The position numbers were made by a program, and so were the translations under genes. Below the pieces are notes generated by a model. That model was not told where the DNA came from and did no database searches. It saw only the letters and a list, made by a program, of their open reading frames with translations. A stretch of 13,975 nt of DNA, taken from NCBI GenBank assembly GCA_013695905.1, contig JACCZQ010000126.1, positions 1 through 13,975 on the forward strand, given 5' to 3'. This DNA is from Chthoniobacterales bacterium (GTDB lineage: Bacteria; Verrucomicrobiota; Verrucomicrobiia; Chthoniobacterales; UBA10450). Positions 12,331 through 13,975 of this stretch are shown one piece after another. Each line of letters starts with the position of its first letter. The stretch's first letter is position 1.

Positions 12331-13427
12331 GTCACCTGGAATCTACCGACGAAACGGCGATCGAGCCAATCCTTCAACCAGAACGCCCACCGGCCGCGCG
12401 CCGCGAAGCCGCCGCGGGTCAGCAGACCGGTCCCGTCACCGAGATTCAAGATCAACAGGTAACGCTTCTGCGGTTTGAAAACCTGGAGCGATTCACCGCG
12501 CAGGAAGGCGAGGAGATTGCCATGCAACACCGGCGCCTGCCGCACCGCATAGACGCCGATGCGCGGCAGGCATCGCTCGCGAAAACAGACGCAATCGCCC
12601 GCGCCGAAAATCTCCGGATGCGCGGTGCATTGCAGGTGCTCGTTCACACGCAGCGAGCCATCGTCAGCACAGGGCAACCCCGACTCCCGCAGCAAAGCTG
12701 GCGCGCGGACGCCGATCGCCACCAGCAGATGATCGAAAGGTAAACACCGCCCGTCCTCCAGCTGCAGCTCGTGAGGCCGCGCCGTTTTCGCGCGCGCGCC
12801 GCAGAGCAGCTTCACGCCGAGCGAGGTAAGATAACGAGACACAAGTTCCGCTGCTTTCGGCGTGGCTTCTTCGACCAGCCGCTCGCCGGCATGGAGCACG
12901 GTGATATCCGGAGGCTCGTGCGCCGCAAGCAGATGCCAGAGGTTCGCCGCCACTTCCGCACCAGCGGCACCACCACCGGCTACGATGATCCGCCGCAGTC
13001 GGGCAGCTCCGCCGGCCGCCATCGCCTCACGGAAATCGAAGAGATTCTTGATCGGCTTAACCGGCAGGCCGAACTCCGCCGCACCCTCGATGCGTTCCAT
13101 CGGCACTTCGCTGCCGACATTGAGCGAGAGCGCGTCATACCCCACTGTGGCTCCGCTGCGCAGGTGGAGCTGGCGCGCTGCAGGGTCGATGCGCACCACT
13201 TCATCGCGGAGGAACGTCCCGCCGTTGCGCGTGATCAGCGCCTCCACATCGACCGTGTCATCGGCCGGCTCGTAGGTGCGCGAGACCATTCCCGGCCCCA
13301 TCCCGGAGTACCAGAACTGCCCCGGTGCGATCAGCGTGACGTGAACGCCAGCGGCGGCAAACTCGCGCGCGCGGCTCAGCGGATAGAGATGTGCGTGCCC
13401 GGCACCCACGAGGACAAGTCGCTTCAT
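12327..13427 (-). CDS. FAD-dependent NAD(P)H/quinone-type oxidoreductase (TIGR03169-like)
   Basis: This 366-aa flavoprotein has the two-dinucleotide-fold architecture. An FAD-binding MKRLVLVGAGHAHLYPLSRA opens the protein, a second Rossmann fold (RRIIVAGGGAAGAEVAANL) starts near 145, and GAGDCVCF near 290 contacts FAD. YSGMGPGMVSRTYEP and the C-terminal WAFWLKDWLDRRFVGRF match the family I recall as TIGR03169, often linked to selenide,water dikinase, and related to type II NADH dehydrogenases. Cysteines are all in the second half and do not show the arrangement of sulfide:quinone reductase, so that call is not made. The start is ATG at 13425-13427, where the Rossmann strand begins. It is the first gene of the three-gene operon and is divergent from tRNA-Val. 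Electron acceptor unknown. Confidence 0.85.
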   Translation of the reverse strand: MKRLVLVGAGHAHLYPLSRAREFAAAGVHVTLIAPGQFWYSGMGPGMVSRTYEPADDTVDVEALITRNGGTFLRDEVVRIDPAARQLHLRSGATVGYDALSLNVGSEVPMERIEGAAEFGLPVKPIKNLFDFREAMAAGGAARLRRIIVAGGGAAGAEVAANLWHLLAAHEPPDITVLHAGERLVEEATPKAAELVSRYLTSLGVKLLCGARAKTARPHELQLEDGRCLPFDHLLVAIGVRAPALLRESGLPCADDGSLRVNEHLQCTAHPEIFGAGDCVCFRERCLPRIGVYAVRQAPVLHGNLLAFLRGESLQVFKPQKRYLLILNLGDGTGLLTRGGFAARGRWAFWLKDWLDRRFVGRFQVT

Positions 13428-13499
13428 TTCGGCGGGATGAAGTTCATCAGCATCGCCTTGACTGATCGCCCAATGCCCGTCACTTATCACAGATTCTTC

Positions 13500-13574
13500 G
13501 CGCGGTTAGCTCAGTGGTAGAGCACCTCCCTGACACGGAGGGGGTCACAGGTTCGAAACCTGTATCGCGCACCA
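13500..13574 (+). tRNA. tRNA-Val (GAC)
   Basis: A complete cloverleaf can be drawn. The acceptor GCGCGGT pairs with ATCGCGC (one G-T wobble). The D arm is GCTC/GAGC, and the anticodon stem CCTCC/GGAGG carries loop CTGACAC, giving anticodon GAC. The T arm is ACAGG TTCGAAA CCTGT, followed by discriminator A and encoded CCA at 13572-13574. The 3' part of the gene is the left copy of a 35-nt direct repeat. Confidence 0.96.
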
Positions 13575-13594
13575 TCTCCGCGGACGCGATGTTC
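13560..13594 (+). repeat. Direct repeat, left copy (tRNA-Val 3' end), att-like
   Basis: This 35-base segment starts inside the T stem of tRNA-Val, includes the acceptor strand and CCA, crosses a 14-base spacer and ends six bases into the GIY-YIG reading frame (ATGTTC). It matches 13801-13835 at 34 of 35 positions, the only change being T13565 to C13806. A 3' tRNA end duplicated downstream is the usual form of an integration site. Confidence 0.85.
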
Positions 13595-13858
13595 TACACG
13601 TATGTGTTGCGATGCGGGGACGGTGCTTTGTACGTCGGCTCGACGACTGATCTGAAGCGCCGGCTGGCGGAACACAAAAAGGGAGCAGTGCCCGCAACTG
13701 CGCACCGCCTGCCGGTGTGCCCTGCAGGATTACGAGGCGTGCCGCTCAGAAACGGGCGCACGAGCACGCGAGAAGCAGTTGAAGACGGGCTTTGGTCGCG
13801 CTGTACCGCGCACCATCTCCGCGGACGCGATGTTCCGCGGGCTTGCACGATTTGCTAG
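13589..13858 (+). pseudogene. Frameshifted GIY-YIG endonuclease (COG2827-like)
   Basis: ATG at 13589 opens a typical small GIY-YIG nuclease: MFYTYVLRCGDGALYVGSTT (TYV and YVG standing for GIY and YIG), DLKRRLAEHKKG with the catalytic arginine, and VPATAHRLPV. After that the family sequence moves to the next frame: DYEACRSE, then ARAREKQLKTGFGRA with the conserved Glu of EKQLK. One extra C in GTGCCCTGCAG (about 13718-13728) explains the shift; without it the protein reads LPVCLQDYEACRSE. As it stands the first frame ends at 13858 as a scrambled 89-aa product. The family resemblance also stops at the direct repeat at 13801, so the true C-terminus is lost. It begins 15 bases after tRNA-Val. Confidence 0.8.
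13801..13835 (+). repeat. Direct repeat, right copy, att-like
   Basis: This is the second copy of the tRNA-Val 3'-end repeat, 241 bases downstream of the first. It starts exactly where the GIY-YIG family sequence ends, includes CGCGCACCATC from the tRNA end, and again ends in ATGTTC before the two loci diverge. No tRNA remnant lies before it. Confidence 0.85.
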
Positions 13859-13975
13859 TGCAGACCCGCCTGCTCTCGCAGCCACTTCTCAGCCTGAGCC
13901 CAATGCTCGGTGGCGCGACCCTCCGGCCGGCCGTCCTCTTCCCAGAGATGCTCCGCCAGCCGCGCAATGTCGGCT
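13855..13975 (-). CDS. DUF2934 protein, C-terminal part (runs off the window)
   Basis: The minus strand from the window edge reads 39 residues in one open frame ending at TAG (13855-13857). It contains IARLAEHLWEEDGRPEGRAT, then HWAQAEKWLRE, the characteristic pattern of the short DUF2934 domain (helix, LWExxGRPEGR, xxHWxxAE). The family is small and of unknown function. The 5' end lies outside the window, so start and full length are unknown. Its stop codon converges on the GIY-YIG remnant. Confidence 0.78.
   Translation of the reverse strand, partial: ADIARLAEHLWEEDGRPEGRATEHWAQAEKWLREQAGLH

Follow-up and report, generated by a model that had tools for sequence, protein, structure and literature searches.

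A gene for a small GIY-YIG nuclease lies behind a tRNA-Val gene in an assembly of a Chthoniobacterales bacterium (GCA_013695905.1, contig JACCZQ010000126.1), and a further copy of the end of that same tRNA lies behind the nuclease gene. The question raised by this locus is how a tRNA end came to stand on both sides of a lone nuclease gene, and whether the arrangement is a mobile unit, a local duplication or something else. The window considered here is the whole stretch of DNA that was analysed, 13,975 nucleotides in length, and the locus stands close to its end.

The tRNA-Val locus of the window

The features of the locus are listed in Table 1. An earlier note on this DNA had reported a 35-nt repeat around the nuclease gene, and this is borne out, since the two copies agree at 34 of 35 positions at a spacing of 241, as compared with a best 35-mer match of 22 in 200 single-base shuffles of positions 12800–13975. 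The tRNA on the left is likewise intact, as that note had held, and the ATGTTC inside the repeat forms the first two codons of the GIY-YIG ORF. The gene had also been taken as whole, which it is not: a frame change breaks it, so that residues 1–43 lie in one frame and the C-terminal part, which runs into the right repeat, lies in another. The match of the first part to the profile PF01541 covers profile positions 1–40 only, and this copy lacks the normal gene end as well as the hairpin described below. The ORFs closest to both parts are found behind tRNA-Val in two other genera (L099 and L045), the second part agreeing with L099 at 17 of 20 residues, and the two parts are less similar to one tRNA-Met-linked ORF and one tRNA-Pro-linked ORF.

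Table 1. Features of the tRNA-Val locus, with positions in the window
Feature	Position	Strand	Basis
tRNA-Val(GAC), intact; the tRNA of the element-bearing locus	13500..13574	+	ARAGORN; Rfam tRNA
Linker of 14 bp between tRNA and GIY-YIG start	13575..13588	+	sequence
GIY-YIG nuclease, N-terminal part; 31/43 to L099, 27/43 to L045	13589..13717	+	
GIY-YIG nuclease, C-terminal part, in a different reading frame; 20/24 identical to L045	13731..13802	+	
35-nt repeat, left copy: 15 nt of tRNA 3' end, 14 nt of linker, ATGTTC	13560..13594	+	
35-nt repeat, right copy; tRNA 3' end to 13815, matching the tRNA place in element-free L041	13801..13835	+	
DUF2934 gene, C-terminal end, cut by the contig end; right flank common to element-free L041	13855..13975	-	

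The contig ends at 13975, 140 bases past the right repeat, and the flank up to this point can be set beside that of an element-free tRNA-Val locus in the same assembly (L041), which is either a second locus or a strain variant, its left flank being too short to decide. The tRNA-Val of L041 is identical to that of the window (77/77), and its DUF2934 gene shows 86.7% identity to the window's over 113 bp. A common marker in this gene lies 77 bp from the tRNA end in L041, while in the window it lies 81 bp from the right repeat and 322 bp from the intact tRNA; therefore, the right repeat occupies the place that the tRNA holds in the element-free locus. The right repeat is odd in that it continues through the linker into ATGTTC and has no hairpin, and a comparable extra piece, made up of tRNA end, linker and ORF start, is present at a tRNA-Pro locus (L117). 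The alternative reading offered by the earlier note, a duplication between tandem tRNA/GIY-YIG units, is also right in part: tandem arrays of such units do exist, and the right repeat may be a collapsed tandem pair. Copying that started at a break in the right copy and was then aborted would fit the odd repeat equally well. What the window contains is a decayed copy from a large family of elements that appears not to have been described before.

Anatomy of the element in related genomes

The comparison of related loci establishes an architecture, its presence or absence at corresponding sites, a series of stages of decay, and families tied to tRNA isotype. Matches to an alignment of four sequences were obtained at E <= 1e-6 in 37 of the 41 genomes of the window's family, and 30 loci from this search were taken together with 60 further stretches. 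The whole set of 317 HMM hits falls on 247 distinct stretches and, once fragments are merged, on 231 genes, two loci (L008 and L025) being left out as duplicates of L011 and L045. A start no more than 60 bp after a same-strand tRNA was found for 87 of these 231 distinct genes, and in 67 of the 87 the last 25 nt of the tRNA are repeated downstream at 19 of 25 positions or better, proportions that do not equal genome-wide rates, as loci were taken in score order and not at random. The repeat is complete (25/25) in 35 of the 67 and stands at 24/25 in 17, its median offset is 294, and the distance from tRNA to HMM start in the genes with a repeat is 4–54 bp. Among 48 control tRNAs without a GIY-YIG gene only three have such a repeat, and two of these (L156 and L191) are derivatives of the element that have no ORF. 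The earlier note's notion of a nuclease-only unit tied to tRNA genes is supported. The 20 tRNA-linked genes below the 19/25 level include that of the window, because its repeat comprises only 15 nt of tRNA. At distances of 61–250 bp behind a tRNA there are 40 GIY-YIG genes, 11 of them with a repeat, and 104 genes lie farther away or have no tRNA, again with 11 repeats, including those of second copies of tandems. Of the 33 genomes of the window's family that contribute a GIY-YIG locus to the set, 26 have one or more tRNA-linked copies with a repeat. At one locus with no GIY-YIG hit (L049, G021:C177), a tRNA-Val 3' end is repeated 69 bp downstream at 24/25, and this is perhaps a strongly deleted element.

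The element interrupts a tRNA gene within its anticodon arm and brings with it a replacement tRNA of the same kind. Fuller copies consist, in this order, of a tRNA 5' half whose anticodon arm gives way to a hairpin, a spacer, a complete tRNA, a linker, a GIY-YIG ORF of ~80 aa, a hairpin, and a tRNA 3' half. The right copy comprises the local tRNA from the D arm or the anticodon arm to the 3' end, with the hairpin replacing the anticodon arm, and the left end, often found upstream of the complete tRNA, comprises the 5' half, the same kind of hairpin and the spacer; thus, a split tRNA encloses the complete tRNA and the ORF, with a hairpin on either side at its anticodon arm. The earlier note had proposed the tRNA 3' end as the point of insertion. 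This has to give way to the anticodon arm, since in left copies the upstream flank continues into the 5' half of the tRNA, and the fuller copies bounded by these hairpins carry the tRNA whole.

A hairpin of at least 7 bp lies within 50 nt before the repeat in 54 of the 67 loci (in one of them, L315, it is the native anticodon arm), as compared with 19 of 1340 shuffles and 2 of 67 intact tRNAs. A copy of the tRNA 5' half was found upstream in 25 of the 66 loci with enough upstream sequence, with the hairpin present in the inspected cases. Hairpins are similar within an isotype, those of tRNA-Met and tRNA-Lys being CCCCGAAAGCTTTCGGGG and variants, that of tRNA-Pro in the window's family GTCGCCGCGGCGAC, and those of fMet and some Asn loci of ATCC..GGAT types. 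The Met/Lys hairpins conserve a stem of seven pairs around a variable loop, and the innermost pair changes on both sides (CCCCGAA/TTCGGGG, CCCCGAC/GTCGGGG, CCCCGAT/ATCGGGG). It was a search for the pattern GAGCAG-hairpin-TTGG with one mismatch, found in 19 of the 41 family genomes and in none with the reversed control, that revealed the left end of the element. In the window's own genome PF01541 gives 10 matches, one of which, in a frame of 550 aa, looks like UvrC, while four of the other nine lie behind a tRNA or tmRNA found by ARAGORN (tRNA-Val, the window; tRNA-Lys, L003; tRNA-Met, L009; tmRNA, L005), and a further one, L010, lies behind what by eye is a loose tmRNA 3' end. Beyond what is present in the window, L003 and L009 have extra partial tRNA copies in which a hairpin replaces the anticodon arm. 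The units of tandem arrays are 93–100% identical in five of six arrays and 64% identical in L108. The hairpin-bearing tRNA 5' half is itself multiplied in tandem upstream of the tRNA, with three copies in L009 (1–353) and two in L003.

The ORFs of the element belong to the GIY-YIG nuclease superfamily, all 20 aligned ORFs matching PF01541 at E <= 1e-3 and the first lying above the curated cut-off. Invariant in the alignment are Y5, Y15, G17, R25, H29 and E62, which we take to be the catalytic residues. The predicted structure has a mean pLDDT of 92, and its closest solved relatives by fold, with which the sequence search agrees, are UPF0213 (BH0048, EF2693; 1zg2), the sole match at E <= 0.001, followed by Slx1 (6seh) and then the UvrC nuclease domain. 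Slx1 is described with the structure 6seh as acting together with Slx4 on branched DNA, and kinship with a nuclease of this kind makes the hairpins of the element a candidate substrate. The element nuclease is a stand-alone ORF adjoining the tRNA, with tRNA genes or the hairpins as its putative targets. In eight of nine ORF pairs pN is 0.10–0.18 as against a pS of 0.58–0.96, the ninth having 0.50 as against 0.78; dN/dS could be computed for three pairs and is 0.05–0.11, with synonymous sites near saturation.

Filled and empty sites, isotype families and hosts

Empty sites, which the earlier note had proposed to look for in related genomes, are present. Among the eight genomes of genus g6, the tRNA-Met site is filled in G023 and G043 and element-free in G011, G049, G054 and G056, while G058 has the left half only and G057 gave no hit. 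The gene adjoining tRNA-Met lies upstream in G023, G056, G011, G054 and G058, and downstream and inverted in G043 and G049, so that each arrangement includes a filled and an element-free member. At the tRNA-Pro site of the same genus, the ORF is whole in G049 and G054, partial in G056 and G058, and affected by an internal deletion in G057; G023 and G043 are empty, and G011 has no repeat. The G011 locus (L159) contains, as judged by eye, a short stretch resembling the end of the ORF, and was counted neither as filled nor as clean. The flank beside the left half in G023 is 85.5% identical over 385 nt to that of the element-free tRNA-Met of G056, and the sequence beyond the right half in G043 is 79.9% identical over 294 nt to that of the element-free G049. 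Flanks at tRNA-Pro are weaker, with 69–75% identity downstream and 61–64% upstream, the latter being taken to be little above chance for such an alignment, and the upstream flank of G043 and G049 shows 62.8%. Corresponding tRNA-Met and tRNA-Pro sites of g6 are polymorphic for presence and absence between species only, and no recent insertion between near-identical strains was seen among the filled/empty comparisons, all of which are between species.

As judged from the aligned sequences, groups in the nuclease tree correspond to tRNA isotype rather than to the genus of the host. The tree comprises 72 unbroken ORFs no more than 60 bp from a tRNA, aligned over 80 columns, with 7 of 69 inner branches starred. 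Isotype changes number 17 on it, as against a shuffled mean of 45.0 (none of 200 shuffles was as low), while genus changes number 45 over 53 labelled rows, no fewer than the shuffled 43.4. Within the window's family the corresponding values are 6 for isotype (shuffled 19.0) and 25 for genus (shuffled 22.5). No clustering by genus was found within isotypes, in what are small sets: Met, 5 changes as against 4.7 (7 rows); Lys, 5 as against 5.0 (6 rows); Pro, 8 as against 7.4 (11 rows). Poor resolution of the tree may account for part of the missing genus signal.

When the phylum sample was searched with the alignment of 20 sequences at E <= 1e-10, at least 119 of 288 genomes and at least 82 of 152 genera gave matches, tRNA-linked or not. 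Loci from this sample extend the repeats to tRNA-Arg, Thr, Ser, Ala, Tyr, Cys and Gly, so that about a dozen tRNA isotypes show the same architecture. When named genomes were scanned with the Met/Lys family, 62 loci were obtained, mostly labelled Verrucomicrobiota; one of the others (L288), labelled as an alphaproteobacterial MAG, has no right repeat. Six loci that we take to be patescibacterial (L314, L315, L317, L319, L321 and L323), together with L320, have GIY-YIG genes that adjoin tRNAs and, as seen by eye, hairpin-bearing partial tRNAs. At the actinobacterial, Chloroflexi and Zixibacteria matches and at a second alphaproteobacterial MAG (L327–L336 and L338–L340), no tRNA linkage was found. 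These hosts are mostly MAGs, and misbinning is possible. In L314, L315, L319, L320 and L323 the hairpin appears by eye to lie in the D loop of the partial tRNAs, and the GIY-YIG gene lies mostly 5' of the complete tRNA.

Proposed mode of spread and competing explanations

The best explanation of the locus, and one that we consider likely, is that it is the decayed copy of a small selfish element that inserts in the anticodon arm of tRNA genes and spreads by means of its nuclease. In such an element, a promoter-like sequence upstream of the left half would probably serve the carried tRNA and the nuclease together, the nuclease would most likely break DNA at tRNA genes or at hairpins, and recombination via the tRNA halves would either place a copy of the element in an unoccupied tRNA gene of matching isotype or multiply it in tandem. 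The host would survive because the tRNA travels with the element, and decay would follow by frame changes and internal deletions, as in the window. Element-borne tRNAs can be the only copy. Of 12 genomes searched with tRNA-Met, 11 gave exactly one full-length elongator tRNA-Met and G017 gave none, and in six draft genomes (G014, G016, G018, G019, G023 and G043) this sole tRNA is the element-borne one, although further copies may be missing from such drafts. Synthetic home-and-rescue drives break an essential gene and bring a working replacement, and endonuclease ORFs of mitochondria carry the 3' part of the gene that they invade. The element shares the logic of both, in that an essential gene is broken and a replacement brought; unlike them, it carries a whole gene, a tRNA, which is not recoded. 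A bolder version of our explanation, to which we would give somewhat less than an even chance, holds that the element is a natural home-and-rescue element of ~0.4 kb that splits a single-copy essential tRNA gene and supplies its only working copy, with families tied to isotype in at least two phyla and hairpins that mark its ends and are possibly the substrate of the nuclease; an element that supplied the only working copy would be hard to lose. Recoding as the source of immunity of the carried tRNA was looked for and not found, as tRNAs of filled and empty loci show no systematic difference: at tRNA-Met, Val, Lys and Pro-TGG the two cannot be told apart by any position, and for all of these but Lys some sequences are shared by filled and empty loci. 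Separating positions are present for Gly-GCC and Pro-GGG, with one empty locus each. This speaks against a simple scheme, and the element must be spared by context, structure or regulation. Also counting against the explanation are the 20 of 87 tRNA-linked genes with no repeat at the 19/25 level, a second GIY-YIG subfamily (below) that has no tRNA repeat, the poor resolution of the tree, the weakness of some flanks and the differing position of the gene adjoining tRNA-Met.

Other processes could also be held responsible for tRNA pieces around a nuclease gene. Tandem arrays are common, both repeat copies match the local tRNA variant, with the D arm included in several Pro loci, and left halves are multiplied in L009 and L003, all of which would suit a local tandem duplication of the tRNA by hairpin-prone slippage, the GIY-YIG ORF being a long-standing neighbour, passed on vertically, that merely borrows the tRNA promoter and has disappeared from some lineages. 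We regard this as unlikely, given that one architecture recurs at so many isotypes with ORF families tracking isotype instead of genus, that the hairpins of each isotype are alike across genera, that the flanks of G023 and G056 fit insertion in the anticodon arm, and that similar loci occur in Patescibacteria. Very unlikely, in our judgment, is a role in RNA metabolism or defence, in which the targets of the nuclease would be either its cognate tRNA or invading DNA, and the partial tRNA with its hairpin would act as a decoy or inhibitor RNA. In length the hairpin comes close to an anticodon arm, but it contains no anticodon, and its stem is conserved while the loop varies; three of five proteins gave weak matches in PADLOC; however, the best of these reached 3.2e-05 and two of the five had none, Slx1 and UvrC, which with UPF0213 are the nearest solved structures, are DNA nucleases, and most inspected left copies have no 3' half, so that a complete decoy tRNA is not encoded there.

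The att pattern usually includes a second copy of the tRNA 3' end farther downstream, which the repeat at these loci resembles, and the locus might accordingly be read as the remnant of an integrase-borne island or prophage at a tRNA 3' end. We find this hardly conceivable, as the repeats stand only 275–413 bp apart around the ORF in the 67 loci, leaving no room for an integrase, and as right copies mostly have a hairpin replacing the anticodon arm. In the window, too, no integrase lies between the repeat copies, as the earlier note had correctly stated. A group I intron was also rejected: Rfam at gathering score gave 25 matches in the window and 19 loci, all of them tRNA and none of an intron family, and a complete tRNA gene sits inside the element. 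Beside 20 GIY-YIG loci for which ARAGORN found no upstream tRNA, the Rfam search for other RNA genes gave one tRNA. As for possible vectors, viruses yielded three weak matches, from one query protein, and among 20 of 54 plasmid records listed the matches span 14–15% of the query, about the tRNA alone.

Neither the nuclease superfamily nor insertion at tRNA genes is new; what appears to be new is the architecture of the element, of which no prior description was found among the listed titles and abstract openings of the open-access literature. Group I introns with homing endonucleases occur in tRNA anticodon loops and owe their spread to the nuclease; the element likewise inserts in the anticodon region, but unlike these introns it keeps tRNA function by means of a second, complete tRNA gene inside. 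Where an integrative element or a prophage has entered a tRNA gene, a working tRNA stands at one end and a partial copy at the other, as at these loci; here, however, the whole unit measures about 0.3–0.4 kb, with no room for an integrase, and the partial copies are hairpin-armed. To our knowledge, proteins of the UPF0213 and Slx1 groups have not been described as mobile or tRNA-linked. A known system with a free-standing GIY-YIG nuclease adjoining tRNA genes is SegB of T-even phages, a homing endonuclease that, according to the cited passages of PMC13096335, cuts within tRNA genes with a preferred motif RAWTSGAAC and is required for the tandem amplification of a tRNA + segB unit by recombination. 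On our own reading this motif resembles the T arm of tRNAs. Those passages (PMC13096335) report no favoured isotype and describe neither hairpin-armed tRNA halves nor a carried replacement tRNA, and unlike the phage protein the ORF of the element, at ~80 aa, amounts to about the catalytic domain alone and resides in bacterial genomes. If the proposed mode of spread is correct, the element would be one of the smallest candidates for an autonomous mobile element, would explain many of the partial tRNAs and small GIY-YIG genes in these bacteria, and would be nature's counterpart to the engineered home-and-rescue drives. How a selfish nuclease can live inside a tRNA gene that is essential and apparently single-copy thereby becomes open to test.

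Other GIY-YIG genes were observed along with the element. A second subfamily lies 94–168 bp behind tRNA-Ala, Gly, Ile, Thr, Met or tmRNA and has no tRNA repeat (L005, L065, L067–L069, L071, L077, L092–L094, L110, L122, L126 and L127), and some of its loci have other repeats, GCCGCGCCGTAGCC-like, on both sides. At L010 (G000:C457), a loose tmRNA 3' end, recognized by eye, lies upstream of an L005-like GIY-YIG gene, and ARAGORN finds no tmRNA there. Another subfamily (FYIGFSTDLKRRL/FYIGFSTNLRARL), at L080 and L096, has a repeat containing GTAAAAGGCTTC on both sides, without a tRNA. Elsewhere in the window, positions 78–1255 contain two CrcB genes (PF02537) that flank a DUF190 gene.
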